Source: Mytilus galloprovincialis (taxonomy: Eukaryota > Mollusca > Bivalvia > Mytilida > Mytilidae). Taken from it: a DNA stretch of 64,000 nucleotides. Positions 942-53,717 of the stretch are shown piece after piece (the first letter of the stretch is position 1; each line of letters starts with the position of its first letter). The DNA lies in contig NC_134846.1 of assembly GCF_965363235.1 (NCBI RefSeq), positions 7,259,001 through 7,323,000 of the forward strand, in the 5' to 3' direction. Made by a program: the position numbers and the translations under genes. The notes beneath the pieces are model-generated. The model worked only from the letters and a program-made list of their open reading frames with translations, was not told where the DNA came from and did not search any database.

Positions 942-1123
942 TGTAACCGGAGAGCACGAATTTCATTACAAAATTGCTTGTCTCCACCGGGACTCGAACC
1001 CGGGACCTCTGTGTTACAAGGCAGCGCGTATACCGACTGAGCTAAAGAAGTACTTCCTTAGCTCAACCGCTTACGGCTGACTAAGTATCTACCAAATGTT
1101 CTAAGGGAAGCAATCCCGTCACA
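942..1123 (-). repeat. TRIM long terminal repeat (downstream, 3' LTR)
   Basis: This is the 182-bp LTR next to the polypurine tract. It carries the tRNA-like block at 979-1052. Confidence 0.88.
979..1052 (-). other. tRNA-like sequence with A and B boxes inside LTR
   Basis: The minus strand has a canonical A box (TAGCTCAGTCGG, 1044-1033) and B box (GGTTCGAGTCC, 1000-990) at normal tRNA spacing. The anticodon-loop position would read TGT (Thr-like). The T arm pairs well, but the acceptor and anticodon stems do not pair convincingly. I therefore read it as a tRNA-derived Pol III promoter module, not a working tRNA gene. It lies in the element's sense orientation. Confidence 0.8.
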
Positions 1124-1136
1124 CTTCCCCCACCTC
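1124..1136 (-). other. polypurine tract of the TRIM
   Basis: The minus strand reads GAGGTGGGGGAAG directly against the LTR start TGTGACGG, the expected position for the plus-strand primer. Confidence 0.8.
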
Positions 1137-1177
1137 AAGAGTCATCATACCATTATGACTCTCACACAAACCATGGG

Positions 1178-1200
1178 AGTATTATATTGACAGGAACTAC
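1178..1200. repeat. left arm of inverted repeat inside TRIM
   Basis: This 23-bp stretch is perfectly repeated in inverted orientation at 2498-2520, near the other end of the internal domain. Similarity extends a few bases further out on both sides. Confidence 0.85.
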
Positions 1201-2497
1201 AACGATTAGTTAGCTTTTATTTATAACCCGGGTAGCCCTGTAGAAAAGATATGGAAACTGTCTAATTAGTACGCTGTCGTTAATTTCTTTTGTGACTATC
1301 TGCGATGCCGCGGTCATAAATTGACCAGAGATACTTCTTATCAATCACGTGGTTTTTATCGAGCAGCTTAACAATATTACCTGTCGTAAAACACCTTTAT
1401 TTATTTCAATCGCGTCGATAAACCATTATCCGTGAACATCTTATTTTAACAAATCGACTGATGCATAAAAAATGAAAATCGGCCCAGAATTAATTATTCT
1501 ACAACGATTGGAAATATTGAGTGACATTATTTTATTAGTTTGTGGGTGAAGTTTAAATCGCGATTAAGGTGTGTTCCGGTTACCGCCGGTTAACAATAAA
1601 TATATTTGATAAATATTAAAACTGTGAAGTTCAGAGTAATATATAAGGTTAAGTTACTGGATAATCCTGGAAAGTACAAATTTCCAGTTTACAATTCGAA
1701 AATTAATCGAGTAAGTACCAATCAATAAAATACAGCAGAGGAAAACAGAGATCTAACTACGTTATATAGCTATTTATATAATACATTTTTGTCCCCTAAA
1801 ACATGTTATCACTATCCGACCAAATGAAACCGTCCTAATGATACTGGTAAATATTATTGAACAGTCGCGAAAACAAATTTCAACAACACATCGGGGTTCA
1901 GCTGAACATTCGTATATACCAACCAATGATCTTACCCTGGATTTAGAGCGAAACCTAATAATTCCTACATTTATCTAAAATCTCTTTGATCTTTAATTTG
2001 ATTTTATCAGAACGATCATTTACAATCGTCTTAAATATGCAGGAAATGTGTGCCACTCAGTGGAGTAAACAGTAGTTATTATATAATCACAACTTGCGAT
2101 ATATATTACATATATACTATTAGTCCAATTTCTACCGAAAAACAAATCAATAAAAATGGGGCATTTATTCAATAAATTTTGTACAAATTTCCATCGTCAA
2201 TGTGTTTTTCTATAGAATTAATGATGTCTCGAGTTAATCCATCAATCACTCAATCGGCACACATATGCAGATGTAAGGTAACGGAATCTGCCGAGGTTTG
2301 CCGATTGCTGTTTCCTAAGAATTTATCACAACATTCGATTTCTTCGTTTATTTCCGTAATCCCGAAAGCAACCGAGAATGACAATATTGTAGGTCACCAC
2401 ACGCTGGTATGTAAATAACGTGCCATGTTTCAAGCTAATTAACATGTCATTAAATTGCGCGCGGCATCGCAGATGAAACGTTTGAAGTCTGGTCGTA

Positions 2498-2520
2498 GTA
2501 GTTCCTGTCAATATAATACT
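2498..2520. repeat. right arm of inverted repeat inside TRIM
   Basis: Reverse complement of 1178-1200. The two arms would bring the ends of the internal RNA together. Confidence 0.85.
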
Positions 2521-2575
2521 TCCATGCACAAACATACCCTAGATAAATTTCTCTCTAACTACCGTGGGTTTTTTT

Positions 2576-2588
2576 AGTTGGGCGCCAA
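2576..2588 (-). other. primer-binding site of the TRIM
   Basis: TTGGCGCCCAACT on the minus strand, directly after the upstream LTR. The core TGGCGCCCAAC matches the 3' end of tRNA-Lys as used by known LTR elements. Confidence 0.8.
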
Positions 2589-2770
2589 TGTAACCAGAGA
2601 GCACGAATTTCATTACAAAATTGCTTGTCTCCACCGGGACTCGAACCCGGGACCTCTGTGTTACAAGGCAGCGCGTATACCGACTGAGCTAAAGAAGTAC
2701 TTCCTTAGCTCAACCGCTTACGGCTGACTAAGTATCTACCAAATGTTCTAAGGGAAGCAATCCCGTCACA
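2589..2770 (-). repeat. TRIM long terminal repeat (upstream, 5' LTR)
   Basis: Partner of 942-1123 with the same length. It would drive transcription of the element. It carries the second tRNA-like block at 2626-2699. Confidence 0.88.
2626..2699 (-). other. tRNA-like sequence with A and B boxes, second LTR
   Basis: Identical to 979-1052. In the upstream LTR it could start a Pol III transcript running toward the primer-binding site. Confidence 0.8.
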
Positions 2771-12240: not shown

Positions 12241-13059
12241 TCAATAATAGCCTCCATTATATCCATAGTTTGCACGTCCAAAACCGAAAGGAGATTGATA
12301 AAAATAATCGGGATGGGACCAATAGTTTGGTGGAGATCCACTTTGGACTCTTCCATTTTTGCGCTTTTTATTATCTCGTGGGTTATCTTTAGAATTTTGA
12401 TGCTTGATCTTTCGAATGTCACTTAACTTCTTGATAACCTCCTTTTCTGTCATCCTTTCTTTCTCTTTGGCTTTTTCTTCGAGTTCTTTCTTGTGAGTTC
12501 CCACAACAATTACCCTATAAAATAACATCATTATCATAAGGCAATTTTTAAGAGCGAAAAATATCACACCATAACTCAGTACCTCTTTCACAAATATTGC
12601 ACACAACCGTATAGTTAAGTATGGACCGTCTTGTAATATGATTGCCACAAACAGACTCCATATTTCCATCTCCACCAATTTTGCGCAACATCTTGCCGGT
12701 GCTCTTTTGGACGTTGTCCAGTCATCTTCGTCGTCCGGATCTTCCACATCTGTTTGACCACCACGTTGCTTCTTCGTGGAGGTTAAGACGAGCGTAAACT
12801 GTAGTAAGCTAATCGTCCAAACCGTTAAAATTGCATAACTAAATGTTTTATCGGCTCTAATTTCTTTTTCTTCGAAAATAATGAAAAGTTCCATGACATC
12901 TGACCCGGAACCAATATATACAAATAATAGCTGTGACAGCTGATCACGAGTAAGTTTCCCTCGTGGCAACATCCATCGACCTAATATAAGGATGAACAGA
13001 AATCCTTGTTCTAACACTGACGCCCATGTATCTGCATCGAGCTTTACAGGGATGGTTAA
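12241..13059 (-). CDS. TMEM26-like exon 3 (last coding exon)
   Basis: The acceptor 'gttttcatttcag' ends at 13060 and the exon opens in phase 0 with Leu-Thr-Ile-Pro. It encodes 272 residues and a TGA. The open frame continues upstream to an ATG inside the intron (giving MFSFQ), but that part is intron sequence. The exon contains most membrane segments, the acidic insert and the Lys/Glu-rich tail. Confidence 0.88.
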   Translation of the reverse strand, partial: LTIPVKLDADTWASVLEQGFLFILILGRWMLPRGKLTRDQLSQLLFVYIGSGSDVMELFIIFEEKEIRADKTFSYAILTVWTISLLQFTLVLTSTKKQRGGQTDVEDPDDEDDWTTSKRAPARCCAKLVEMEIWSLFVAIILQDGPYLTIRLCAIFVKEVLSYGVIFFALKNCLMIMMLFYRVIVVGTHKKELEEKAKEKERMTEKEVIKKLSDIRKIKHQNSKDNPRDNKKRKNGRVQSGSPPNYWSHPDYFYQSPFGFGRANYGYNGGYY

Positions 13060-16000
13060 CTGAAATGAAAACAAACTCCATGAGTGTATACTGAGTTTAT
13101 AAACACAATTAAAATAACTAATAAAACGTGTACGTTGATCATCAATCGTAAAGTCAGATACTTCAATGTAACTTCTAAACGCGGTGTATAAAAATGCACA
13201 ACGTAATTCGTTCTAACTAACTATGAAAATGCACTTATGAAAATGTAACTTCTTTTAAAAGAAAATTAGGTGTAGAAATGTGCGATTTTGATTCATCAAA
13301 GTGCTAAAAGTTAGCTTTTAAATTGAGATTAGTGAATATTTTGATTTCAAATTAAAGTCATATGAAATGAGTGACTGGTGAAAAATAATGTTTATCCAAT
13401 TCTTGAACCAATGCATGTATATATCATAAACGTAGTCTTCTGTACACGATTTTATCATATTTTACCCAAATATATCGTAAAATCGTTTTTTTTCTCTCAG
13501 TCTGTTATGAGGTGAAAAAAAGGGCAGCTACTTAATTGTCGTGTTTTGAAGCCGTAGTTTACCGATTGTCACCTTATAGTAAATAATCAACAAAGAAGCA
13601 TTGATATTGGAAACGTGTTTAACATATACAATCAGATAATTATTTATTTTAATGTCACTTTGCTTACGGAAAATATGTGTCGGCAAATTGTTGAGTATCC
13701 TGAAAGCAAGCAATTAAAAAAAGTAAACTTCTTCTAAATGTGGACAAATTAAAGAATTTTCTTCAGAAAAAAGTATGTGTACATAAGTTTTATAATGAAA
13801 ATTATCCATTTAGTTATAAAAAACATATGCATCATTTTTTTTATTTGAGGTGTCATATGACTTAAAGAATTTTCTTCAGAAAAAAACCGTATGTGTACAT
13901 AAGTGTTATCATTAAATGAAAACTATCCATTTAGTTATAAAAAAACATATGCATCATTTTTTTATTTGAGGTTTGATATGACTTAAAGAATTTTCTTCAG
14001 AAAAAAGTATGTGTACATAAGTTTTATAATTGAATGAAAACTATCCATTTAGTTATAAAAAAAACATATGCATCATTTTTTTTATTTGAGGTTTCATATG
14101 ACTTTAAAAAAAATAATAAAGGAAAATTTTACATTTCTGTGGATAATATCAAGTTGATAGTGTTTATATTACACTATTCATTGTATAAATGTACAAAAAT
14201 CCGTTTTATATAAACATGATTAGACTAATGAAGTTCAAATAATTTACTTATTCGCAATATTTGTTTTGGAAATGTCAATTTGATGTTATATAATCAATTT
14301 GTTAAAGAAAACTGAAATAATAAAAGGTCATTGAATATTTAAATACTACGATCATAACTAATTTATAAGTAATCATAGCAGCAGAAAGTTTAAACCCTGT
14401 TCAAATAAGAGTGTATATACTCGTGTGTCCCCTTTTCTGTTAACTGTGTTCTCTGTCTAAATTCCCGCTCAATTAACCCTTTCATAAAACCTATTAAAAT
14501 TTTCAAAGACTTGTTTATTTTTTCAGTTTTTCAGTGCAACGTCATGTACATTTTACATATTTATGAAAAGCTCGCCATGTGTCCTCCAAACATAATTTTT
14601 TCACAGTTCACCGACAAACTGTATCTACATACAATTTCATTATACTTCAGTTACTTGTTCGATAATATTGACTGTTATCCGTTTATTATTTTATAACCCA
14701 TTTTATATGAAAATTAAATTATTACACGTGTCTAAATCAATCCAAGGTCTGGAGTAATCAAGCATTTCTATAATCATAATGTCTTTGGGTTTTTTAAAGA
14801 CACTTTACAGTTTCCGGATTGTCATAAGCGAGGTCATAAGTTGTAAGGAGGTCTTACTTCTGACACTCGTAGTTTGTTCAACAAATTGAACAAATATTTA
14901 TCTATTCGTGATCATCATATTCTGTCATTATGAATTTCGTGATATCTCGAATTTATTTAGTTCTTATCGCGATATTCAGAGTATCGATCTTGAATTTGAC
15001 TTTAAGCTGTCATCGCAGCACTAGATATCACGAATTGGACCATCGCTAATGAGTTGAAGATTACGAATTTTGATATTGTTGTTCTGGTAAACTTATCAAG
15101 AGATATTGAAAACCCACTGCTCATTAATGTTCATCATTGTATACAAACTATATCTACAATTATAGATTTACGCCAACAATTCATTATTTACAAAAATAAC
15201 TTTACCCCTTCAATGGCGGACAATGCTTCTCCCTGTGAATTGTCACTGGTATTTGTAGCTGGAGTTGTTACTGTATTGTTGTTTACTATAGTCGTCGATT
15301 TTTCCAGACGATCGATTTCCAACAGCCAAATGGCGGGAACGGTGTTGCAAAGGTGAATGAAAAAGCAGAGGCAAAACCTGCAAAGTGCGTATAAAAATAT
15401 GAATGTTATAGAACCTATTTTGACTGGTATTCGTTTTAGAATGATGAGATAAGAAACGGTGAATACAGTGAGACAACAAACCAACCAAAGAGCAGAAAAC
15501 AATCAAAGGCACAGCAAGAAAATCCTGCACCGGAGGCAGACTTCCGATGGCCACTTAAAAAGATGTATACTCATTCAGCGAAAATGGACCGTGCAACGTC
15601 ACATTAAACTCGGAAAAATATCAATGAACCACGATAAAAAAAAATAAGACAAACATGGCCCAGGGGTTCATGACTTTGGACAGGCGCAAACATGCGGTGG
15701 GTCTAACATGTTTTGTGAAATCTCAACCCTCCACTTTACATCTAGCCAATGTGGAATGAAAACACACACATAAATTTTATACGAACAGTATGTTTGCCGC
15801 TTTAGTTTGATATACTTAGAGTATTACGTATAATTTTCTCAGAATTAATGGACTTCTCCCTTTTTTAATTTACCTTGGAGTTCTGTGGTTTTGTTTATAT
15901 TTATATATTTTTTTATCTGCATAGTAATTTTTTGTGATTAATCTGGCGTAGTTGTTGATAAGGTTGATACAGTTTGTTCCATACTAGTTACTGTACTGGA

Positions 16001-24049: not shown

Positions 24050-25925
24050 GAGTAGGTTTGAACAGTACATCTGACAAAACTAACATCTTAAATAGTCAGT
24101 TTCAAAAAGCATTTTCTGAAGAAACAACAAGTGAACCTATTCCGGATAAAGGGAAATCGAACTATCCAAAAATGAACAAGATCACCATCTCCAAGAAGGG
24201 TGTCATAAAATTACTGGACAAGATAAATCCTAATAAAGCAACTGGTCCAGATCAAATTTGCGGAACAGTACTTAAAGAACTTAGTAGCGACATTTCAACT
24301 GCAATCACCTACATCTTCCAAAAATCGCTCGATACAGGAAAAATCCCAAAAGATTGGAAACATGCAAATGTCTGTCCTGTTTTTAAAAAAGGTGATAAAC
24401 ACAACACAATAAATTATAGACCCATATCTCTCACATGCATACTTTGTAAGATCATGGAACACATAATAGCCAGTAGTATGATGGACCACCTAGAAAATAA
24501 CAAAATTTTGTACGACCTTCAACACGGATTTCGAGCAAATAGATCATGCGAAACCCAACTAGTATCATTCATCCAAGAACTAGCAAAAAATAACAACAGT
24601 AATATCCAAACTGACATAATTGTGATGGACTTTGCCAAAGCCTTTGACAAAGTTCCTCACAAAAGACTTCTCTACAAACTGAAACAATATGGCATTGATG
24701 ACAACACCCTAAAATGGATAGAAGATTTTCTCACATCTCGGACACAAACAGTGATTATTGATGGTGTTCAGTCAGACAAAATAAACGTAACATCTGGTGT
24801 TCCCCAAGGAACAGTTTTGGGTCCGATCCTTTTCCTTGTATTCATAAATGACTTTAACGAATACATCAAACACAGTACCCTCAGATTATTTGCAGATGAT
24901 AGCATAATTTATAAAACAATACAAAACAAAGAAGACACACAAAAACTGCAAGAAGATCTCACATCAGCTGCAAAATGGGAGAAGGACTGGCTCATGTCAT
25001 TCCATCCAGACAAGTGCTCAGTCCTTCAGATAACAACTAAGAAAAATCCATTAAATTTTGACTATACTCTCCACCAACATGTACTTCAAAAAGAAACATC
25101 CACAAAATATCTGGGAATTACTATACAAACTGATTTAAAATGGAACAAACATGTAAACAATATCACAGCTGCAGCCACACAAAAGCTGAACTTTATTAAA
25201 AGGAATCTAAAAGTCAACTCAAAAACAGTCAAAGAAAAAGCATACATTGCACTTGTAAGACCAAAGCTAGAATACAGCAGCTGCGTCTGGGACCCGCACA
25301 CCAAATCTCAAACACACCAACTTGAGATGGTCCAGCGCAGAGCAGCAAGGTACACCTGCAACAGATACCATAACACCAGCTCAGTCACTGAAATGCTACA
25401 AACTCTAAATTGGGCAACACTTGAGAAAAGGCGAATTAGAACCCGCATCATTTTCCTCTACAAAATTATACATCATCTTGTTGCCATATATCCGACAGAC
25501 CTACTTACACAATCTGATACAAGAACACGTCAACATTCACATATTTACTCCTTCAGGCCCATACAAACCACTAAAGATTCATACAAGTACTCATTCTACC
25601 CTAGAACAATCTTGCAATGGAACCTTCTCCCAGTAGCTGCAGTTCAATGTACTACTCTTGAAAGCTTCCGAGAACAGATTCCAATATCTGTTCTCAATAA
25701 ACATCTAAACATTTAAATAAATTCCACAATGTATATAGTTTTAACCAAAATGTATAGTACAAAAACAGAAGAAAAAGCAGTTATGTTGAAATTTATATTT
25801 TTATTTTTGTATTATTCACTGTAAATAAAATTTATATCCCACGCACGCGCGGCATAGTAAAATCAGTGCCCGGCACGTTATCATCAGTATGTTGATGGAG
25901 TGCTGAATTATAAAGAAGAAGAGTA
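24050..25925 (+). mobile_element. 5'-truncated LINE (Jockey/CR1-like non-LTR retrotransposon)
   Basis: One open frame encodes a reverse transcriptase and its C-terminal region. No endonuclease domain precedes it, so the copy is 5'-truncated near 24050, as is usual for LINEs. A ~200-bp 3' UTR follows the stop and ends in a short 'ataaagaagaagag' tail near 25923. No clear target duplication could be seen. The intact frame argues for a young insertion. Confidence 0.85.
24058..25716 (+). CDS. LINE ORF2 fragment: reverse transcriptase
   Basis: About 552 residues, unbroken. The first codon is TTG and is only where the truncated frame begins; no true start is present. Reverse transcriptase motifs run in order: NKATGPD (about 60), FKKGDK...NYRPISL (about 110-125), HGFRANRSCETQL, VMDFAKAFDKV with catalytic Asp 191, SGVPQGTVLGP (246-256), and FADDS (278-282) with the paired catalytic Asp. 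The C-terminal part has TKYLGI, RPKLEYSSCVWDP and MVQRRAARY, typical of Jockey/CR1-type elements. The product would copy its RNA at nicked target DNA, but without the endonuclease and 5' UTR this copy is not autonomous. Confidence 0.9.
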   Translation: MNSTSDKTNILNSQFQKAFSEETTSEPIPDKGKSNYPKMNKITISKKGVIKLLDKINPNKATGPDQICGTVLKELSSDISTAITYIFQKSLDTGKIPKDWKHANVCPVFKKGDKHNTINYRPISLTCILCKIMEHIIASSMMDHLENNKILYDLQHGFRANRSCETQLVSFIQELAKNNNSNIQTDIIVMDFAKAFDKVPHKRLLYKLKQYGIDDNTLKWIEDFLTSRTQTVIIDGVQSDKINVTSGVPQGTVLGPILFLVFINDFNEYIKHSTLRLFADDSIIYKTIQNKEDTQKLQEDLTSAAKWEKDWLMSFHPDKCSVLQITTKKNPLNFDYTLHQHVLQKETSTKYLGITIQTDLKWNKHVNNITAAATQKLNFIKRNLKVNSKTVKEKAYIALVRPKLEYSSCVWDPHTKSQTHQLEMVQRRAARYTCNRYHNTSSVTEMLQTLNWATLEKRRIRTRIIFLYKIIHHLVAIYPTDLLTQSDTRTRQHSHIYSFRPIQTTKDSYKYSFYPRTILQWNLLPVAAVQCTTLESFREQIPISVLNKHLNI

Positions 25926-30720: not shown

Positions 30721-33700
30721 GGTTTTATGATGAAGAAGATAGAAGAAAATTCCTCCAGTAAAAGAAATTATATATATATGGCATAAGCAACAACCATTGG
30801 TATCATTGATAGAGATCTAATATAGTTCAAGAAAAGTATAGCCAATTACCCTGGTCACATGATCACTATGAATATACTGGGAGTCAAAAAGTTTTCTTGT
30901 GACAAATGTGGTAAATTATTTAATCAGGAATGCACACTTACAATACATCGAAGATCACACAATGCAGGAAAAAAGTTTGTGTGCCATGTTTGTGGGAAAT
31001 CCTTTACGTTAAAGTCAGTAATGCTTAAACATGCAATGTCTCATATGATGGAAAATATCGGTATTATGTATAAAGGAAAGAGTTCTTATCGAAATCGACA
31101 ACATGCCATGTCCGACTCAGGGAAAAACAAATTTTATCAGTGTACTATCTGTTCAAAAAAATTTAGAAACGAGGAAAGTCTTGAGGAACATATTAAAAGT
31201 CACGAAGAAAAGAGACAGTGTAATTTATTTACACAAAAGTCTGACAACACTTTTGATAATAAACTTAACAATTCTACAGATTTACCTAAAAATGAGGATG
31301 CTGGTTCAGATGATAGTTTACAAGATCTCTTTATAGAAAAGGAATCTTATGTTATCAGTGACAATTCTTTTGATAGCCATGCAGATAAAATAGAACCAAC
31401 AATGTTTATTATTAGTGACAATTCACTTGATAGCCATTCAGATAAAATAGAACCAACAACTTTTATTATTAGTGACAATTCACTTGATAGCCATTCAGAA
31501 GAAAAGAAACCAACATCTTTTCTTATTCAGGCATCTGATGAATGCTCTAGCTCAAATTCTGATGAAACCAGCCTAAAGAACTTGGATTTTAATTGTGTTT
31601 TATGTGGGAAATCATTCAAAACTGTTCCTTCTTTTATTCACCATGTTAACACCCATCAGCCTTCATACAATGATAAAGACAGTACAATAGAGCAGAAAGC
31701 AAAGGACAGTTCTCAAGAAGATCCTTCTTCATTAGATAATAAGATTGAGACATCTGTAGACTCATTACAAATACATGGAACCAGGAAGAAAATTCCCAAC
31801 AGGGATGCAGTAGAAACCAGCAAGAAAATTGCTAAACAGAATACAGATGACGCCCTATTAGGAACTGATAGCAAATTCAAAAAATCAAAAGATGTTGGTA
31901 GTAAAAAAAATAAAACAAGGGATCGAAACAAGCATCCTTCCCTTTTAAACAATATTGATACAGTGGAAAAACAATTTCACCCTGCCCGGTCAGATAAATT
32001 AGCTAAGGGAAAGAAACAGATGGTGAAAAATCAATTTGAAGCTGCCAAGTCAGATGAATTAGTTGTAGATGATGACGGAATGAATAAGACACTGGCAAAT
32101 CATTTCATAACTGTCAAGTCAGATGAATATGAGGTAAACGATGAAGGGATGAAAAAGACACTTGTAAATCATTTCAAATGTGTCGAGTCAGATGAATTAG
32201 CTGAGGGAATGAATCAATTTGAAGCTGCCACGTCAGATGAATTACCTGTAAAGGATAATGGGACAAAAGTTCGGGAAAAGGTTAAAACCATATTTATTTG
32301 CAGATGTTGTAATAAGAAGTTTGCTAGCAGACCTTTTGTCAAGGAACATTTGAACATGTATTTAGAAATGGAAATTAACAGAGTTGATTTAGAACACAAA
32401 CAATTCATTGATCAATTAAAGGAAGATACTGAGTTTGACAGGGTCGTTGATAAATTTATTTACTCTATTTCTACAGGGAAGTTAAAAAGTATTACTCAAG
32501 ACTTGAAGAAATCTGATGAAAAGCAAATTATTTATCAATGTGCAAAATGTCAAAAAAGTTTTCAAATACAACATCAAATCATTGATCATATAAAGGATTG
32601 TGAACCAAAACCCCAAAACACTGACAATTTCAAATGTCAAGACTGTAGTGGAAGTTTTACAACTGACATGATGTTGAAGAAACATATACTGTTATGTCAC
32701 AATCGTTCCCAAGATTCAAGGAAACAGGAAACAGAAAAGAAATCTATGAAAGACCCAATTTATACAGAAAAACCTAAAGAAACAGAAGAAACAAGTATTA
32801 CTCAAGACTGGAAGAAATCTGATGAAAACTTAATTATTTATCATTGTACAAAATGTCAGAAAAGATTTCTAGAAAAACAACATATCATTACTCATTTAAA
32901 GGATTGTAAATCATGTAAATCAAAACCCCAAAAAAAGGAAATTTTCAAATGTCAAGACTGTATTGGAAGTTTTATGTCTGACATGATGATGAAGAAACAT
33001 ATACTGGTGTGTCACAATCGTTCACAAGATTCAAGGAAAAGGGAACCAGAAAAGAAATCTGTGGAAAACCCCATTACAGAAAAACTAAAAGAACCAGAAG
33101 AAAACAAAGATGTCAGAATCGGGAATGACACACAAAAACAAGAAAAGAAACCAATTGAGAACATGACTATAAATGTATTGTCTGGAATTCATAAGGTTAA
33201 GAAATTAACAGAGGTCACAACTGGAAAAGAAACTCCGAAATATGAAAAGAATTCAAAGGAAAACATAATCAGAAAGAAAACTGCAGGGAATCGAAAGAAG
33301 AAATCTGAGAAGACGAACACCAACAATCCAGGAAATAAAAATGAAATGACTTGCGAAAGATGTGATAAAATTTGTGATTCTATGACAGAATACTTGAATC
33401 ACATAGAAACAAGTCATAATTCTAAGTCTAATGAAGTTGGTTCTGATGCTGAATTTATTTGTGCACATTGCAAAATGAGTTTTGATTCTCAGGCAAAGCT
33501 GTTTTCACATCTTAAAGGTCACAAAGAGTCGAATAGACAGCAGAGTACCTTTGAAAAATACAAAGATAAAATGACATACAATAGCGACACTGGACAATGG
33601 GGTTGTAGAATTTGTCAGAAGTCTTTATCAAACAAAACAAATTTATTAAGACACATTTCATTACATGATAAAGATATTAAAGAATCACATGTATGTCCTT

Positions 33701-34182
33701 TTTGTAATCGTATATTTAAACACCATCGATATCTTATGCATCACATTAACTATATGCATAATGGAGTTGAAAAAGAAGAATGTCTCATTTGCCATGCCAA
33801 ATTTACAAAAAAAACAAGTCTTCAACGTCATATGGAACTCCATACAGGAGAATCACTTCAGAAAAAGATTTTGAAATGCGAAGAATGTGGAAAACAATTT
33901 AGAGGTAGTAAAGATTTGATAACCCACACAAGAATACACACGGGTGAGAGGCCTTTCCCGTGTGATCAATGTCCTTACAGAGCAATCAACTTATGGAATT
34001 TGAAGCGACACTTACTGACACACGAAAATAGAAGAAAGAGAAAAAGAAGTAAAACAGATGATGAAGACTCCCAAGAGGAAAACAATATAGAAAGAAATAT
34101 TAAAATGAAAATTTTACATGGCAGAAGTTATCTTATGGAAGCAGAAAACACCATGAGTGGAAAAGTCAAAGAAATGGTTTGA
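30721..34182 (+). CDS. C2H2 zinc-finger protein 1 (1107 aa)
   Basis: Probable DNA-binding nuclear protein. A splice acceptor 'tattttctttcag' ends at 30720. The exon frame has stops (TGATGA) right after it, so 30721-30858 is 5' UTR and the coding part is 30859-34182, an intron-free 1107 codons. About 16 C2H2-type modules lie at residues 12-34, 40-62, 93-115, 244-266, about 479-501 (last His replaced by Tyr), two pairs at about 558-613 and 660-719, and a C-terminal run from 831 to 1054. The last pair is joined by a classical HTGERPF linker. The middle is Ser/Asp/Lys-rich with three ~20-residue ISDNS-type repeats (165-222), SDE repeats (373-466) and a ~100-residue tandem duplication (545-641 and 647-746). 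A basic nuclear signal RRKRKRSK follows the last finger. Upstream non-coding exon(s) not found. Targets unknown. Confidence 0.85.
31351..31524 (+). repeat. coding repeat: three ISDNS-type units
   Basis: Three consecutive ~60-bp units encode ISDNS-DSH--KIEPT-type peptides. The second and third are almost identical at DNA level, so the repeat expanded recently. Confidence 0.85.
32491..33096 (+). repeat. coding tandem duplication of two degenerate fingers
   Basis: Residues 545-641 and 647-746 are copies. Each starts ITQD-KKSDE, then a finger of C2HC type ending HIKDC or HLKDC, then an FKCQDC-GSF finger ending CHNRSQDSRK, and an EKKS linker. The DNA is clearly similar too. Confidence 0.88.
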
Positions 34183-42917: not shown

Positions 42918-45900
42918 TCAATTCATATTGATCTGGCTAATATCTTTGATACTGATGACATTAGTTAAGGCTCCTGAGATTGGAATCTGTGAGACAGTTA
43001 TGATTGGGGTACCAGCACTGTTAACATTGGGAGCTAGTAGTGGCAAGTTGGTCATGGATACAGGTTGAACTGATAATTTCTTCTTACTATTAGCTGTATT
43101 TGATTCAGTTTTAATAGCTCCTGTCTGTTTAATTCTCATTGAAGGTTTAGTATCTTTCACCGGACTGTTTCCTGTATTCTTCATTGATCCCATATTTAAC
43201 AGAAGCTTCCTCATTTCCGCGATATCATGGGTTTCCACATGTTTTTGTAACTGGAGGCTTGTTTTGAATGTAGTTTCACAAACATTGCATATGAAATTAT
43301 CCTGATGAGTTTGCTGATGACGATGTAACTTGTAGTTTGTCGGAAACTGTTTACCACAGACATCACACGTTGGAACGCCACGTTCATGTTTACCTAAATG
43401 TCTTCTCAACAGTTCTTTATGTTTGAATTTCTTAGAACAGATATGGCATTGTTCAGATTTCTCTTTGAAATGAATTCCCCGATGCCGTTCCACATCTGGC
43501 TTGCTACGAAATGCTTTGTTACAGATAGGACAAATAAAAGGTTTCTCTCCAGTGTGTATAAGCTTGTGCCGTTTCATATTTGTATTTGATGAAAAACTCA
43601 TATTACAAATTTCACACGTCACTTTGCACGGATTGGTGTGTATCTTTCTATGGTCTATCAAGTATCGCTCAATTTTGAAAGCTTTTCCACATATTTCACA
43701 AACGTGAGATTTTGATTCCACATGTGTAGTCTGGTGACGGCGAAGGTTTGACATGGACATGAAACTTTTGGAACAGGTTTCACAATAGAACGGTTTTTCA
43801 CCAGTATGTGATCTCAAATGTATTTCCATATCACTATTAAATTCAAACCGCTTGTGACAAATTTCACATTCCAATTTCTTGTTTTGATCGTTGGTTCCAT
43901 AATGTAAATTAAGGTGACGGTTCAAGTTAGAATTCCCACTTAGCATTACTTTGCAAATTGGACATTCGCGTTTCCTCCTTCCCATTGAAGTATGAACATT
44001 TATAACATGCTCCTTCAAGTATCGTGGACAGACAAACCTTCGCTTACATTCAGGACATTCAAACTTTTTCTCAACAGAATGAAGCTGCTTGTGTCTTCGT
44101 AAATTCGAGATCCTACTAAACTTCTTATTACAAAGATTACACGGATACGGACGGATTGCCGAATGAGATTTAATATGATCTTCTAATCTAGATTTCTGTG
44201 TAAATGTTTTGTCACAGAGGTTGCACTCATATTCTTTAGTATTTGTATGTGTAAGTTCATGCCGCATCAAGTTTGCACGGAAGCTAAACTTCTTGTCGCA
44301 ATAGCTGCATTTGTATGGAATATCATTATGGAACTTGATATGCCTAGTCAGGGCCCTTTCGGTGAAGAAGTAGTTTCCACACATATCACAGAGGTATGTT
44401 TTAGACGTCTCTTCTCCTTGTGGATCTCCTTCACTGTTATATACAGAGTTATTGTCCTCATCAGTTTCAATCATTTCAAGAAAATCATCAATGTCCAAAT
44501 CATTACTTTCCTTGTACTTTTCAATAACTTTTATATGTCCAGAGACAGTCTGGCCGAGAGCAAATTTTGCAATGTACCACTGAAGGTGATTCTGTAAATA
44601 ATCCCTGGAAACAAACTTTTTCTTACATTCTGTACACTGATATCTTTTTGGACCATGAAGTTGTATATGCTGTTGAAATCCAACAACAGAAGTGAATGAC
44701 TTCAAACAAACATTACACTTCAGACCTTCTCCACTTATGTTCTCTGGTGTGGTCAAGATCTTTGATTTAAGCAAATCTCTTTCACGCGTTTTACCTTTAA
44801 TAGAATGTGATTTCACATGTCTCCAATAGTTGGGATAATTTGTGTAGACTTTAGTGCATTGTGAACAATTATACACCTTTTTCTCATTCAAATGTGACAT
44901 GAGATGTTCTTCCAGATGCCAAGGAGACCTAAACATTTCTTCACATGTCTGGCATTTATATCTGACATCAGACCCGTGAGATTTCACATGTTTGTACATG
45001 GATGGTTTCAAAGTGAAGGTTTTTGAACAGAGACCACAAGTGTATGGTTTTATACCTTTATGTCCCCGCTTGTGAACAAACAAGGTACCAATGTTTCCAA
45101 AGCTCTTCTGGCAGATATCACATTCAAACCGCATACCTTTCATTTCTTGTAGTGGTCTGCTGTATTTACATTTGTGCTTATCAAACAGTTTACTATTCAG
45201 GAAGGACTTTTCACACAATTTACATGTAACTGGCTTTAAACCTGTGTGTGTGTACAAATGTATATCTAAACCAACTTTATTTGTGAATTTACGTTGGCAG
45301 TTGCCATAGTTGCATGCATACAAAACCTTCGATGACCTTGCATTTTTCGATACAATCAAAGGTTGTGTTTGTTCTCTTTCAAATATTTTTCTCCTCTTTT
45401 TAGGTTTTTCCTCGTGGTAATGGTTTTTAACAGCATTTATAACGTTAGCTGTGGCTTGAAGTAGACCCGATTCTTCAAAGGCGGTAGCTACGATATCACG
45501 AGTGGGAAGATACTCAGTTGTCTGCCCTTCTGAAGTTGTAACTATACCCTGATTTGAAATACAATCTCCTGACTGACGGTCTGCTATAAATGCACTCTCA
45601 CTAGATTGTGCTAAAGAGTTCTGAAAGGAGCTCAGCAGCTCAGGGTCAATTTTACTATCATTAATATCTGTGTACATGTGCCCTTCAGTCATAATTGAAC
45701 CTGAAGTGTTGTAATAATTTTGGTTATTAAATTCTGATGTAGATGGTAGCATGCCTTCATATTCCTGCGTGTTTTGTATAAACTCCATGCCACCTTCCTG
45801 CACAGACTCAGTTTGCATTGGCAGAACTTGCAATGACGGGCTACTAAAATTGATATTTTCCATATAAGTATCAATTGTTTGCATCATCTGACTACTAGAA

Positions 45901-46196
45901 TCATTGGCAGAGTTTTGCATGTCTAAGTTGACTGTATCATCCAATAACTGCGGTTCTTCCTTAAATGAGTCCTTCTTTGGAGACTCTGGTAAAACTATCT
46001 GCATGATCTTTTGACCATCACGATCACATACTCTTACTGGCAATATTCTGTCTCCGATTTTAATTCCTTGAATCTCTGACGAAGGACAACTAGCCTGTGA
46101 TATCATCAGCTGTTGGAGAACTTCTGGATTGGATAAGACATTTTGAATGGCACTGTTGGACAAGGTCGTGTTATCTGAATTCACATCTGTCTCCAT
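42918..46196 (-). CDS. C2H2 zinc-finger protein 2 (1092 aa)
   Basis: Probable nuclear DNA-binding regulator. The start is the ATG at 46196: it is the first Met in frame after a TGA in the same exon, whose acceptor 'gtcttcttctttag' ends at 46246. The open frame extends 10 codons further up to a TTG that is not a start. Residues 1-260 are acidic and rich in Ser, Gln and Asn, suggesting an activation region; then a nuclear signal KPKKRRK (about 264-270). About 22 C2H2 fingers fill 293-990. Several are joined by HTGEKPF linkers. One finger (KKFVSRDYLQNHLQWY) lacks the last His and is followed by a ~70-residue acidic linker. The last 102 residues are low-complexity (VSMTNLPLL...). The whole coding region is in one exon; upstream exon(s) not found. 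Faces zinc-finger gene 1 tail to tail. Targets unknown. Confidence 0.87.
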   Translation of the reverse strand: METDVNSDNTTLSNSAIQNVLSNPEVLQQLMISQASCPSSEIQGIKIGDRILPVRVCDRDGQKIMQIVLPESPKKDSFKEEPQLLDDTVNLDMQNSANDSSSQMMQTIDTYMENINFSSPSLQVLPMQTESVQEGGMEFIQNTQEYEGMLPSTSEFNNQNYYNTSGSIMTEGHMYTDINDSKIDPELLSSFQNSLAQSSESAFIADRQSGDCISNQGIVTTSEGQTTEYLPTRDIVATAFEESGLLQATANVINAVKNHYHEEKPKKRRKIFEREQTQPLIVSKNARSSKVLYACNYGNCQRKFTNKVGLDIHLYTHTGLKPVTCKLCEKSFLNSKLFDKHKCKYSRPLQEMKGMRFECDICQKSFGNIGTLFVHKRGHKGIKPYTCGLCSKTFTLKPSMYKHVKSHGSDVRYKCQTCEEMFRSPWHLEEHLMSHLNEKKVYNCSQCTKVYTNYPNYWRHVKSHSIKGKTRERDLLKSKILTTPENISGEGLKCNVCLKSFTSVVGFQQHIQLHGPKRYQCTECKKKFVSRDYLQNHLQWYIAKFALGQTVSGHIKVIEKYKESNDLDIDDFLEMIETDEDNNSVYNSEGDPQGEETSKTYLCDMCGNYFFTERALTRHIKFHNDIPYKCSYCDKKFSFRANLMRHELTHTNTKEYECNLCDKTFTQKSRLEDHIKSHSAIRPYPCNLCNKKFSRISNLRRHKQLHSVEKKFECPECKRRFVCPRYLKEHVINVHTSMGRRKRECPICKVMLSGNSNLNRHLNLHYGTNDQNKKLECEICHKRFEFNSDMEIHLRSHTGEKPFYCETCSKSFMSMSNLRRHQTTHVESKSHVCEICGKAFKIERYLIDHRKIHTNPCKVTCEICNMSFSSNTNMKRHKLIHTGEKPFICPICNKAFRSKPDVERHRGIHFKEKSEQCHICSKKFKHKELLRRHLGKHERGVPTCDVCGKQFPTNYKLHRHQQTHQDNFICNVCETTFKTSLQLQKHVETHDIAEMRKLLLNMGSMKNTGNSPVKDTKPSMRIKQTGAIKTESNTANSKKKLSVQPVSMTNLPLLAPNVNSAGTPIITVSQIPISGALTNVISIKDISQINMN

Positions 46197-46245
46197 GTCT
46201 ATTTCTGTAGTTGTAATACACTTCAAACTACTGTTGAATCACATC
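46197..46245 (-). other. 5' UTR part of zinc-finger gene 2 last exon
   Basis: From the acceptor AG at 46247-46246 to the start ATG. Contains an in-frame TGA that fixes the start. Confidence 0.75.
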
Positions 46246-47560: not shown

Positions 47561-48441
47561 ATAAAATAGTAGGTTTTGACAATATTAAAGCTTGATTTAT
47601 CACTTGTACTTTGACATTTCTTTAATTTCTGAAGTATTTTTTCCCTGTTCACCAAGAAATAATTAAATCTGGTCTATGTATGTGTGACTGACAATGAGAC
47701 AATTCTCCATCCATGTCATAATCAGTTTGGGGACAACCCCTTAATGTTATAAATATCCCTTTTACATGTTTTATGAGGGATCAATATAAGTTATAATATA
47801 TTTGTTTGTACAAAAGGGCTCATATTTTCTCAAAGAACTATATCTATCTGGTATTAAATGGTCAAAACATGTCCAAGAATTTTGTTATATTCCTGGACTT
47901 TAACCATGTTAACACATTTACTTTAACAGTTTAATATTATTAAAAACCAGGTGCTCCGCAGGGCGCAGCTTTATACAGTTGGGGCAAGTATGGACAAAAC
48001 ATTCAAGCGTGATACAGCTCTGAATTTGGATTGTGATCAAATTTTTGACATTACATGGTTTTTTTTTACACAAAACAAATGTCAAGATTTTACAAATCAA
48101 TTAAAGATTTCTTCTTCAAACTTATTTAAATCTAAAATTAAATAATTGACACAGCATAGGTTTCTGACACAGAATGAATGTGGTCTAATGAACTTAAAAA
48201 AAATTTTTTGCCTTTGAGCAATTCACTATGCTGTTGAATATTAATCCTCTAAAAGAAATGCTTGAAGAAATTTTCTTTTTATTTATGAAATCTGAAATGA
48301 GAAAAATTTAACCCCCCCCCATTTTTTTTTCACATCCCCGTTTCTCTTTTTCCAAAACTGATATCAATTCAAATTTCTAATGGAGTTTGCAACAATAACT
48401 ACTCTTTTAAATACATCATAAAATATAAAACAATAAAAAAA

Positions 48442-48718
48442 ACTTCATCAGCAACATTTAATATTGGCAAATTTCCAATTAAGTTATTTACATAAAGTTA
48501 TTGGCAAATAAAAATAGAAAATGACACCATAGTCATGTCTGGCAAATGTCCAACATACATTATCTAAAAACATTTTAGATAAGATAAGGAAAAAAAGCTT
48601 CATCAGCAACATTTTATATTGGCAAATTTCCAATGAAGTTATTTACATAAAGTTATTGGCAAATAAAAATAGAAAATGACATCATAGTCATGTCTGGCAA
48701 ATTTCCAACATATATTAT
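48442..48718. repeat. tandem duplication, two ~160-bp units
   Basis: 'cttcatcagcaacattt-atattggcaaatttccaat' through 'atagtcatgtctggcaaat-tccaacata-attatc' occurs twice in a row with few differences. It is absent from copy B. Confidence 0.88.
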
Positions 48719-49109
48719 CAACTACTATTCTATACAAAGAAAGATAACTCCAATTGAAAATTAATTGCTATTGCACAATATTGTGCAATTAAATATTTCT
48801 TGCTATTGTGCAATACTGTGCAATTGAAAATTTCTTGCTATTGCACAATACTTGATATGGAATCCTGATTTGGACCAACTTGAAAACTGGGCCCATAATC
48901 AAAAATCAAAGTACATGTTTAGATAAAGCATATCAAATTAGCCCAAGAATTTAATTTTTGTTAAAATCAAACTAAGTTTAATTTTGGACCCTTTGGACCT
49001 TAATGTAGACCAATTTGAAAACTGGACCAAAAATTAAGAATCTACATACATAGTTAGATTCGGCATATCAAAGAACCCCAATTATTCAATTTTTGATGAA
49101 ATCACACAA

Positions 49110-50230
49110 AGTTCAATTTTGGACCCTTTGGGCCCCTTATTCCTAAACTGTTAGGACCAAAACTCAAACTCCAAAATCAAACCCAACCTTCCTTTTATGG
49201 TCATAAACCTTGTGTTTAAATTTCATAGATTTCTATTTACTTATACTAAAGTTATGGTGCAAAAACCAAAAATAATGCTTATTTGGGCCCCTTTTTGGCC
49301 CCTAATTCATAAACTGTTGTGACCTCAACTCCAAAAATCAATCCCAACCTTCCTTTTGTGGTCATAAACCTTGTGTTAAAATTTCATTGATTTCTATTTA
49401 CTTATACTAAAGTTATTACGCGAAAACCAAGAATAATGCTTATTTGGGCCCTTTTTTGGCCCTTAATTCCTAAACAGTTGGAACCAAAACTCCCAAAATC
49501 AATCCCAACCTTCCTTTTGTGGTCATAAACCTTGTGTCAAAATTTCATAGATTTCTATTCACTTAAACTAAAGTTATAGTGCGAAAACCAAGAAAATGCT
49601 TATTTGGGCCCTTTTTGGCCCCTAATTCCAAAATATTGGGACCAAAACTCCCAAAATCAATCCCAACCTTCCTTTTGTGGTCATAAACCTTGTGTTAAAA
49701 TTTCATTGATTTCTAGTCACTTATACTAAAGTTATTACGCGAAAACCAAGAATAATGCTTATTTGGGCCCTTTTTTGGCCCTTAATTCCTAAACAGTTGG
49801 AACCAAAACTCCCAAAATCAATCCCAACCTTCCTTTTGTGGTCATAATAGTTATCAAAAGTACCAGGATTATAATTTTATACGCCAGACGCGCGTTTCGT
49901 CTACATAAGACTCATCAGTGACGCTCAGATCAAAATAGTTAAAAAGCCAAACAAATACAAAGTTGAAGAGCATTGAGGACCCAAAATTCCAAAATGTTGT
50001 GCCAAATACATAAACCTTGTGTCAAAATTTCATAGATTTCTATTCACTTAAACTAAAGTTATAGTGCGAAAACCAAGAAAATGCTTATTTGGGCCCTTTT
50101 TGGCCCCTAATTCCTAAAATATTGGGACCAAAACTCCCAAAATCAATCCCAACCTTCCTTTTGTGGTCATTAACCTTGTGTTAAAATTTCATAGATTTCT
50201 ATTCACTTTTACAAAAGTTAGAGTGCGAAA
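49110..50230. repeat. satellite-like array, six ~160-bp units
   Basis: 'ccttccttttgtggtcat' occurs at about 49187, 49348, 49509, 49667, 49828 and 50152. The spacing is 158-161 bp, except where a 161-bp element plus a 5-bp duplication interrupts the array. Copy B has four such units and copy C one. Confidence 0.9.
49848..50008. mobile_element. short element nested in the 160-bp array
   Basis: 161 bp with 5-bp target duplication CATAA (49843-49847 and 50009-50013), splitting 'gtggtcataaacc'. Contains 'acgccagacgcgcgtttcgtc' and 'agactcatcagtgacgctca', a sequence very common in mussel transcripts as I recall. No clear inverted ends; SINE-like or MITE-like. Confidence 0.8.
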
Positions 50231-50315
50231 ACTAAAAGTATTCGGACGACGACAACGACGACGCCAACGTGATAGCAATATACGACTAAAAAATTAAAAT
50301 TTTTGCGGTCGTATA

Positions 50316-51099
50316 ATAAGTGGACCCCTCTTTCAGAAAAAGTTGTTTAAAATATGATGAAACTCTCTCTGAGTACAAAATTCTAAGTTTTCAAAGGTTT
50401 TGTATAGAAGAACTATACAAATCCTTGGTATTTCTATTTTCTTTTCTACATCAGTAAAATAACCCCTTGTCTGAGGGAGGGTTGTTCTCAACCTGAGAAT
50501 AACAAACACAGGTCAAAGTACGGCCTTTTACACAGGGCTTTGATACAGACCAAACAGCATGCTATAAAGGATCCCAAAATTATTAGCGTACACAATTCGA
50601 ACAGGAAAACCAACGATCTAATTTGTATATCATGTATATCCAAACGGAAAAAATATCAATGAACAACATCAACAAACGATAACTGCTGAACGACAGGCCC
50701 CTCAATCAATCAGGACAGGTGCATAAACATGCAGCGGCTATGGATAGTTTTGTTTCGCCAGCATACAATATAATTGCAAATGAAGGCAAATCCTTCAGAA
50801 GTTCTTTGTACTTTATTCTAACAACGAACATTTTTTGATAGGGAATATAAGTAAGGGGGAAAGTAACCAATGTTTTGTTCTTTACAGGTATTTCCGCTGT
50901 TAAAAATTTATATCCGAGCACTCCCGCTTTGGATAAATAGGTTTCATGCTGAAACAAATATTCTCACAGATATTTACAAAGTGTGGTGTGGTGCTTTTAT
51001 GTTTAAAATCATTATATATATACAGGTTAGACTGTGATTTTAAAAACAAATGTTGATATCTTTTTATAATTTTTACAAAACAAACGGTGCGGGAAATGG
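50316..51099. other. intergenic with diverged R2-like repeat
   Basis: About 50500-50760 resembles the R2 family ('caatgaacaacatcaacaaacgataac', 'ggacaggtgcataaacatgc'). The rest is unidentified. Confidence 0.45.
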
Positions 51100-51220
51100 A
51101 CATGATTACATTTCCGGATGGGGGAAGCGGGAATATAAAAAAAATAAAAAAATTCTGTTTTGAAAAAAATAAGTGCGGGCAGGTCCGTCAAACAAGGAAT
51201 CAAATTGGTGTGGCCTAAAT
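51100..51220 (-). repeat. repeat R7, second copy (reverse)
   Basis: Ends 'caaattggtgtggcct', the reverse of the start at 47400. Confidence 0.6.
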
Positions 51221-51299
51221 GCTTTAGTTTCAAAGATACATGTAGAAGCCAAAAACTGCATTTTACCCCTACAACATGTACAGATGTATGTTCTATTGT

Positions 51300-51515
51300 T
51301 AGCCATGTCGGCATGTTGGTTTGCAAGCAAGGTCAATGGACACCTTTTTAAACTACATGTAGATACCCTAATGATGATTGTGGCCAACTTTAATTAAATT
51401 TGACCCTGTAGTTTCAGGAGAAGATTTTTGTAAAAGTTAACGATCACAGATGAAGGAGCTCAAATGATCAGAAAAGCTCACTTGGCTCTATGGGCTAGAT
51501 GAGCTTAAAATGCTA
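51300..51515 (+). repeat. dispersed repeat R6, fragment
   Basis: 'agccatgtcggcatgttgg', 'gataccctaatgatgattgtggccaa' and 'aaatttgaccctgtag' as in 46925-47045; the end 'gctcacttggctctatgggctagatgagctta' is the probable family terminus. Confidence 0.7.
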
Positions 51516-51567
51516 AATCTTACTATGTGATTACAAACTATACAAGTAACTTACATGTATATATAAA

Positions 51568-51946
51568 AAAGAAGATGTGGTATGATTGTCAATGAGACAA
51601 CTGTCCACAAGAGACCAAAATGACATAGACATTAACAATTATAGGTCACCGCACGGCCTTCAACAATGAGTAAAGCCCATACCACATAGTCAGCTGTAAA
51701 AGGACCCGATATGACAATGTAAAACAAATTCAAACGAGAAAACTAACGGTCTTATTTATATAAAAGAATGAACAGAAAACAAATATGTCACACATAAACA
51801 AACGACAACCACTCAATTACAGGCTCCTGACTTGGGGCAGACACATTCATAAATAATGTGGCGGGGTTAAACATGTTAGCCATGATCCCAACCCTCCCCC
51901 TAACCTGGGACAGTGGTATAACAGTACAACATAAGAACGAACTATA
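51568..51946 (+). repeat. dispersed bivalve repeat R2, copy 2 (interrupted)
   Basis: Starts 'agaagatgtggtatgattgt', ends 'cataagaacgaactata' where element B begins. What looks like its continuation ('aaaatcagttgaaatagg') resumes at 53699 and again at 54303 ('ctcatcagatggacaaaaatac'). Confidence 0.75.
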
Positions 51947-52482
51947 ACCAGATGCTCCCCAGGGTGCAGCTTTATACGACCGCAGAGGTTGAACCCTGAA
52001 CGGTTGGGGCAAGTATGGACACAAAATTCAAGCGGGATTCAGATCTAAATTTGGATTGTGATTAAATAGTTGACACAGCATAGGTTTCTTACACAGAATG
52101 AATGTGGTCTAATGAACTTAAAATATTTTTTTTGCCTTTGAGCAATTAACTATGCTGTTGAAAAAATGTTTGAAAAGAAATTTTCTTTTTATTTATGAAA
52201 TCTGAAATAAGAAAAATTTAACCCCCCCTTTTTTTTCACATCCCCCTTTCCCTTTTTCCAAAATTGATCTCAATTCAAATTTCTAATGGAGTTTGCAACA
52301 ATAACTACTCATTTAAATACATCACAAAATATTAAAACGAAAATAAAGTGCTTGTTATCACTGAATGGTAAAAATTGTTTTAATTTATCAGTTGGTAGTA
52401 AAAGTGAATATACATTGTATATTGTATAAAACAATGATTTAAGTTGATTCAACTACTATTCTGGACAAAGAAAGATAACTCC

Positions 52483-52720
52483 AATTGAAAATTTCTTGCT
52501 ATTGCACAAAATTGTGCAATTAGATATTTCATGCTATTGTGCAATACTGTGCAATTGAAAATATTTGCTATTGCACAATACTGTGCAATTGAAGATTTCT
52601 TGCTATTGCGCAATAGTGGCAATTGAAAAATTTTTGCTTTTGCACAATACTGTGCAATTGAAGATTTCTTGCTATTGCTGAATACTGTGCAATTGAAAAT
52701 TTCTTGCTATTGCACAATAC
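52483..52720. repeat. 34-bp palindromic minisatellite (attgcacaatactgtgcaat)
   Basis: About seven units of 'ttcttgctattgcacaatactgtgcaattgaaaa'. The core attgcaca-tactg-tgtgcaat type palindrome can fold into a hairpin in every unit. Copy A has only two or three. Confidence 0.9.
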
Positions 52721-52999
52721 TTTATATAATAATTTTGGATCCTGATTTGAACCAACTTGAAAACTGGGCCCATAATCAAAAATCTAAGTACATGTTTAGA
52801 TTCAGCATATCAAAAAAGCCCAAAGATTCAATTTTTGTTAAAATCAAACTAAACTTAATTTTGGACCCTTTGGACCTTAATGTAGACCAATTTGAAAACG
52901 GGACCAAAAATTAAGAATCTACATACACAGTTAGATTCGGCATATCAAAGAACCCCAATTGTTCAATTTTTGATGAAATCAAACAAAGTTCAATTTTGG

Positions 53000-53600
53000 A
53001 CCCTTTGGACCCCTTATTCCTAAACTGTTGGGACCAAAACTCCCAAAATTAAAGCCAACCTTCTTTTTATGGTTATAAACCTTGTGTTTAAATTTCATAG
53101 ATTTCTATTTACTTATACTAAAGTTATGGTACGAAAACCAAGAATAATGCTTATTTGGGCCCCTTTTTGGCCCCTAATTCATAAACTGTTGGGACCTCAA
53201 CTCCCAAAATCATTGTCAACCTTCCTTTTGTGGTCATAAACCTTGTGTTTAAATTTCATTGATTTCTATTTACTTATACTAAAGTTATTACGCGAAAACC
53301 AAGAATAATGCTTATTTGGGCCCTTTTTTGGCCCCTAATTCCTAAACTGTTGGAACCAAAACTCCAAAATCAATCCCAACCTTCCTTTTGTGGTCATAAA
53401 CCTTGTGTCAAAATTTCATAGATTTCTATTTACTTAAACTAAAGTTATAATGCGAAAACCAAGAAAATGCTTATTTGGGCCCTTTTTTGGCCCCTTATTC
53501 CTAAAATGTTGGGACCAAAACTTCCAAAATCAATCCCAACCTTCCTTTTGTGGTCATAAACCTTGTGTTAAAATTTCATAGATTTCTATTCACTTTTACT
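53000..53600. repeat. satellite-like array, four ~160-bp units
   Basis: 'cttccttttgtgg' or a variant at about 53059, 53219, 53379 and 53539. The units are the same as those at 49110-50230. Confidence 0.88.
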
Positions 53601-53717
53601 AAAGTTAGAGTGCGAAAACTAAAAGTATTCGGACGACGACGACGCCAACATCATACAGGTATACGACCAAAAAATTTTCAATTTTTTGCGGTCGTATAAA
53701 AATCAGTTGAAATAGGC

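Follow-up and report, generated by a model that had tools for sequence, protein, structure and literature searches.

TRIMs that carry a tRNA-type promoter were named Helenus by Kojima in 2024 and, according to that paper, occur in fungi, six animal phyla and Selaginella (PMC10886601). In bivalves 51 families are described from five orders of pteriomorph bivalves. The animal elements are reported to generate 4-bp target duplications, those of bivalves to be primed by tRNA-Lys and other tRNAs, and the resemblance of animal Helenus primer sites is given as being to Gypsy elements only (PMC10886601). The same source aligns molluscan blocks with tRNA-Lys-TTT, predicts seven bivalve families to encode tRNA-Thr, and describes a zebrafish family that forms tandem arrays; in this defining paper the Pol III promoter function is presented without experimental validation (PMC10886601). 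Related designs have been described in other hosts. Cassandra of plants is a TRIM whose LTRs contain a Pol III promoter of the 5S rRNA type (PMC10886601), and tandem arrays of it have been reported (PMC7215508). In Ajax, a TRIM of nemerteans, the LTRs are presumed to contain a Pol III promoter; this element carries part of a 5S rRNA and makes 5-bp duplications (PMC10886601). Bivalves also harbour biv-TRIM, with tandem copies, solo repeats, repeats of 202-218 bp and an interior of 77-80 bp; as described in the portion of PMC6934838 cited here, its PPT is mostly GGGGAGA, it has a conserved TGATCCCAAAGGAC and no clear primer site, and a tRNA promoter is not mentioned.

The window analysed here is a stretch of 64,000 nucleotides from Mytilus galloprovincialis (NC_134846.1, 7,259,001 to 7,323,000), and all coordinates without a contig name refer to it. 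It contains what is very probably a Helenus-type TRIM, that is, a non-autonomous LTR retrotransposon, typically of 467 bp, with a predicted tRNA-derived Pol III promoter in each LTR, which was later interrupted by a DNA transposon of 1,355 bp. The identification is based on the anatomy, the family, the target duplications, the primer match to a host tRNA-Lys and the boxes kept in the complete LTRs sampled. The kind has already been published as Helenus (Kojima 2024, PMC10886601), which answers the question in the original prediction of whether it had been described; the family in the window is placed there by the features described for the group and not by comparison with the 51 bivalve families one by one. 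It confirms independently, from an animal genome assembled to chromosome scale, that tRNA-type promoters can reside in LTR elements, and it adds counts of copies, the host tRNA that fits the primer site and a putative terminator.

The element sense corresponds to the minus strand. The 5' LTR (2589-2770) and the 3' LTR (942-1123) are each 182 bp long, differ by a single mismatch and have TG...CA ends, with TGTGAC as the first bases and TTACA as the last, and the element is enclosed by copies of the target site duplication CAAA on the left (938-941) and on the right (2771-2774). Directly after the 5' LTR comes TTGGCGCCCAAC, with the primer binding site TGGCGCCCAAC at 2577-2587, and directly before the 3' LTR comes the polypurine tract GAGGTGGGGGAAG (1124-1136). 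All the landmarks that had been predicted for a gene-free LTR element were found. Each LTR contains, in element sense, an exact A box TAGCTCAGTCGG and an exact B box GGTTCGAGTCC, at 2680-2691 and 2637-2647 in the 5' LTR and at 1033-1044 and 990-1000 in the 3' LTR, the A box of the 5' LTR being an exact match to TRGCNNAGYNGG. The sense-oriented boxes had been predicted as well. Nowhere else in the 64-kb window do the exact boxes stand at tRNA-like spacing; no such pair arose when the LTR was shuffled 20,000 times with dinucleotides preserved, and the opposite strand of the LTR has none. In this copy TTTT, a candidate Pol III terminator, is found once per LTR, 16 nt past the B box (2617-2620 and 970-973). 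Just outside the element, at 810-878, lies a short tandem array with a 23-bp unit that includes the palindrome TTATTCACCGGTGAATAA.

The tRNA-like LTR sequence with an A box containing TRGCY and YGG and a B box containing GGTTC is shared with bivalve Helenus, and the 4-bp duplications, the primer site for a tRNA 3' end (tRNA-Lys in bivalves), the PPT, the solo LTRs and the short LTR structure without coding capacity are shared with Helenus in general, complete units being 434-503 bp long here against the published 311-1263 bp (PMC10886601). The original prediction of an animal, tRNA-based counterpart of Cassandra was right in kind: both are TRIMs whose LTRs contain a Pol III promoter (a predicted one here), but that of Cassandra is a 5S rRNA promoter in a plant host (PMC10886601), whereas the LTRs here have tRNA-type boxes and no Rfam family reached the cut-off in the window. 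Ajax is likewise a TRIM of this general design and differs by its 5S rRNA part and 5-bp duplications (PMC10886601). Compared with biv-TRIM, which likewise forms tandem copies and solo repeats in bivalves, the LTR is shorter at 182 bp and the interior longer at 103 bp (96-127 bp), the PPT is a different one and a primer site is evident, and the conserved biv-TRIM sequence was absent by eye from the family interiors inspected (PMC6934838).

The window copy is set apart from the bivalve Helenus elements (PMC10886601) by its length of 1,829 bp, which it has only because another transposon is nested inside it. The 1.46-kb interior consists of the short interior of the family, a few bases different from that of copy L020, and a unit of 1,355 bp (1172-2526) that ends in inverted repeats of 34 bp (94% complementary) and lies between two copies of the 7-bp target duplication CACAAAC, at 1165-1171 on the left and 2527-2533 on the right. 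Since most of the interior is this nested unit, the element proper is approximately 467 bp and not 1.83 kb, and the original prediction of a single small element spanning 942-2770 needs to be corrected in this respect. The unit occurs elsewhere in the genome: of 303 candidates 40 were scored, and 39 of these lie at other places, at 93-97% identity over the first ~230 bp. Of nine copies fetched, eight align over the full length of the unit (to within 2 bases, at ~89-91% identity with gaps) and one in two pieces. In all six plus-strand copies with inspected flanks the 7-bp duplications were found, direct in five and, in L012, only past two unaligned end bases. No stop-free frame of more than 80 codons is present in the nested unit, and three of its frames gave no Pfam match. 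From these features we read it as a non-autonomous DNA transposon that inserted into the TRIM. The corrected anatomy is also a warning that a long TRIM "interior" may be a nested transposon.

The family was searched for in 1.385 Gb of genome sequence. The LTR search gave at least 44 matches (40 of 694 candidates scored), and 29 places were studied, comprising 28 from these matches outside the window together with the window copy. The original prediction had proposed a count of full elements and single LTRs; among the 29 places, 15 have two or more complete LTRs and 14 have one, three of the latter not being plain solo LTRs since L026 and L031 have an adjoining interior end and L040 has the start of a primer site. 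Exact 4-bp duplications flank 21 of the 29 places (11/15 with two or more LTRs, 10/14 with one) as compared with 7 of 812 when left and right flanks were paired across places. An interior of 103 bp is the usual one and recurs in many copies, giving the typical unit of 467 bp (182 + 103 + 182); a second subfamily has an interior of 120-124 bp among the 29 places and of 119-127 bp among the complete units described below, and the primer site and the last bases before the PPT are common to both. Genome-wide, a 22-base PPT marker has 173 copies with up to 2 mismatches and a 31-base marker from the U5 part of the LTR has 270 copies with up to 3 mismatches, the reversed pattern giving 0 in each case, and at 55 places the B box, the LTR end and the tRNA-Lys primer site follow in fixed order. 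With an interior filter of 80-140 bp, 33 distinct complete units were gathered, with interiors of 96-127 bp.

Several copies are arranged in more complex ways. L021 (2001-3043), L064 and L077 are tandem LTR-interior-LTR-interior arrays with three or four LTRs, neighbouring units sharing their LTRs, as with the tandem arrays reported for Cassandra (PMC7215508) and for the zebrafish Helenus family (PMC10886601). At L052 (1690-3022; C1, ~118.57 Mb) there is a head-to-tail array of 78/84-bp units that runs to the end of the fetched stretch; each unit represents the second half of the Helenus LTR, beginning within the tRNA block and extending to the end of the LTR, and the array is a satellite born from the LTR. 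L026 (1001-1456) is a rearranged copy in which inverted LTR pieces lie face to face, and a similar inverted arrangement is found at C2:12101533-12101938.

Had most copies of the LTR lacked the tRNA block, the original prediction would have failed; in the samples drawn this was not the case. Retention was scored at 50 places drawn by anchors outside the A-to-B block, allowing up to 2 mismatches in each box. Both boxes are present at 36 of the 50 places, including all 29 with complete LTRs, and one or both are missing at the other 14; control segments had both boxes in 3 of 420. The PPT-anchored sample, namely the first 30 listed of 173 and all exact PPT matches on C1-C5, had both boxes at 22 places and at 18/18 where the LTR end is in place, three of these 18 lying in one tandem array. 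The remaining 12 places are truncated, rearranged or decayed, and four of them still have both boxes. The U5-anchored sample consisted of 20 of the 270 places, exact U5 matches on C1-C7 hand-picked from places outside the earlier samples; both boxes were found at 14 of these and at 11/11 with the LTR start at full distance. Of these 11, L089, L091 and L099 have one common flank and therefore probably represent a single duplicated insertion. Since the anchors were exact matches, which favour young copies, older copies are under-sampled in both sets. In 77 distinct near-complete LTRs the A box is exact in 63, the B box in 61 and TTTT is present in 74. Within these 77 LTRs the boxes showed no extra conservation over the rest of the LTR, as 87 of 181 circular shifts gave values as low or lower.

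The block no longer qualifies as a tRNA. ARAGORN called no tRNA anywhere in the window, the block included, and Rfam gave only weak matches below the cut-off in the window, and a functional tRNA in the block is rejected on these grounds. Aligned with five host tRNAs, the block is closest to Lys(TTT), with 51/62 positions and 8 gaps, followed by Thr(AGT) at 49/64, Thr(TGT) at 48/64, Lys(CTT) at 47/64 and Cys at 46/63; the isotype is not assignable from this alignment. By eye the anticodon position reads TGT. In the predicted fold the T arm would be kept and the anticodon stem only partly. A candidate 5' end of a source tRNA, GTCTCCA, was tried and discarded: it gave 134 matches with up to 1 mismatch against 96 for the reversed control, and those listed included no exact match and consisted mostly of two tandem-array motifs.

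The primer site can base-pair along 11 nt with the 3' end of tRNA-Lys(CTT) of the host, taken as GTTGGGCG plus CCA. This tRNA is encoded in a tandem array at C3:91.58-91.66 Mb with 61 pattern matches and a unit of mostly 1.13 kb, one fetched unit of which was called tRNA-Lys(CTT) by ARAGORN. The gene end called by ARAGORN lies one G past GTTGGGCG, which would break the match, and the 11-nt fit therefore hangs on the standard length of tRNA-Lys, which is 73 nt. The single tRNA-Lys(TTT) sampled fits the primer site over only 9 nt. Arrays of tRNA genes with units of ~0.9-1.5 kb were seen at C3:57.61-57.78 Mb, C3:91.58-91.66 Mb, C6:26.86-26.88 Mb and C10:71.14-71.21 Mb, and one fetched stretch of each contained, in the same order, Thr(TGT) with Cys, Lys(CTT) with Arg, Thr(AGT) and Lys(TTT).

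A tRNA promoter in each 182-bp repeat is also what SINEs would bring, and the original prediction itself had named two unrelated tRNA-derived SINEs flanking 1.5 kb by chance as a possible source of error. A tRNA-derived SINE (SINE2) is a single unit with neither primer site nor PPT and moves by target-primed reverse transcription, whereas here there are two LTRs abutted by a primer site and a PPT, with 4-bp duplications around whole units as well as around single LTRs, a 103-bp interior that recurs in many copies and the fixed order of B box, LTR end and primer site at 55 places. Family copies with a common interior, together with the LTR-type duplications, lead us to reject the chance pair of SINEs as next to impossible. 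It is also extremely improbable that the locus is a longer LTR element of 1.8 kb with a 1.46-kb interior of its own, either an ancestral or a captured body. The interior does sit between the primer site and the PPT, but it resolves into the short family interior plus a unit with its own inverted repeats and 7-bp duplication, and that unit is found elsewhere in the genome with 7-bp duplications of its own. This reading was rejected on the nested-transposon structure and the independent copies. Overall, the original interpretation stands in describing an LTR element with a tRNA-type promoter and no genes, and falls in that the kind is not new and the interior is mostly foreign.

The remaining rival accepts the same TRIM and disputes only how it is transcribed, by proposing that Pol II is used as in ordinary LTR elements and that the tRNA block is an inert passenger acquired from a SINE. 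We consider this unlikely. It agrees with the boxes showing no measurable excess of conservation over the remaining LTR and with the TTTT count not being depleted, but a passenger block has to be reconciled with its presence, with the A and B boxes exact or nearly so, in all 29 complete LTRs drawn by outside anchors, and with its retention when neither ARAGORN nor Rfam at its cut-off accepts it as a tRNA. Furthermore, the LTRs of 32/33 units have no canonical poly(A) signal (AATAAA/ATTAAA) and those of 33/33 have no TATAWA, and tRNA-like LTRs are recurrent in fungi, animals and a plant (PMC10886601). The absence of these motifs fits transcription by Pol III, yet by our rough estimate it is probably near the chance expectation for 182 bp.

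Transcription of the Helenus-type TRIM by Pol III is, as judged from sequence, likely. From tRNA-type Pol III promoters the RNA normally starts 10-20 nt upstream of the A box. Pol III would initiate in the 5' LTR a short way ahead of the A box, pass the minimal TTTT of that LTR at some rate and end at the TTTT of the 3' LTR, which would yield an RNA of ~370 nt whose repeated end R, of ~85-90 nt, would be the tRNA block. Reverse transcription would then be primed by tRNA-Lys(CTT), with Gag, RT and integrase supplied by an autonomous Gypsy element. The family data are compatible with Pol III use and are not proof of it. In 31 of the 33 distinct complete units TTTT occurs just once per LTR, at the corresponding place, with none between, and, going by mean variability alone (0.003 vs 0.03-0.085 elsewhere), no other stretch of the LTR varies as little. 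TTTT is not depleted in the units, with a mean of 2.06 observed vs 2.48 in shuffles, and therefore the missing internal terminators are no proof of selection. The window copy itself would no longer be a source of full-length Pol III RNA since the nested insert places 13 stretches of at least four T on the sense strand of the element.

Many transcripts should already end at the TTTT of the 5' LTR. It is possible, and we suggest it tentatively, with the balance slightly against it, that the tRNA block serves both as promoter and as the terminal repeat R of the RNA, from just upstream of the A box to the TTTT 16 nt past the B box, in which case Pol III would set the whole design of strand transfer, and that design would require leaky passage through the 5' LTR TTTT. 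If true, each locus would give mostly short tRNA-like RNAs and few full-length templates. The 467-bp unit is a short test object for the proposal that Pol III transcribes Helenus. A Gypsy partner with the same PPT and a different LTR was not found with one strict pattern, a weak test in that six differing positions were demanded. L040 taken with L081, one LTR followed by a different downstream stretch of ~3 kb, showed no gag-pol frame recognisable by eye.

The window also contains other features of note. A 552-codon open frame at 24058-25716 on the plus strand has a reverse transcriptase domain (PF00078) and, by eye, is probably a fragment of a non-LTR retrotransposon. Part of a Tmem26-like gene lies at 12241-13074 on the minus strand, as judged by a Pfam match. 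C2H2 zinc fingers abound in two long open frames, one at 30859-34182 on the plus strand, where they were recognised by eye only, and one at 42918-46226 on the minus strand, where they have a Pfam match. Finally, at 48265-53662 a block of tandem repeats with units of 35, 135 and 160 bp is present in two copies ~3.9 kb apart, likely a repeat-rich element that was duplicated locally.
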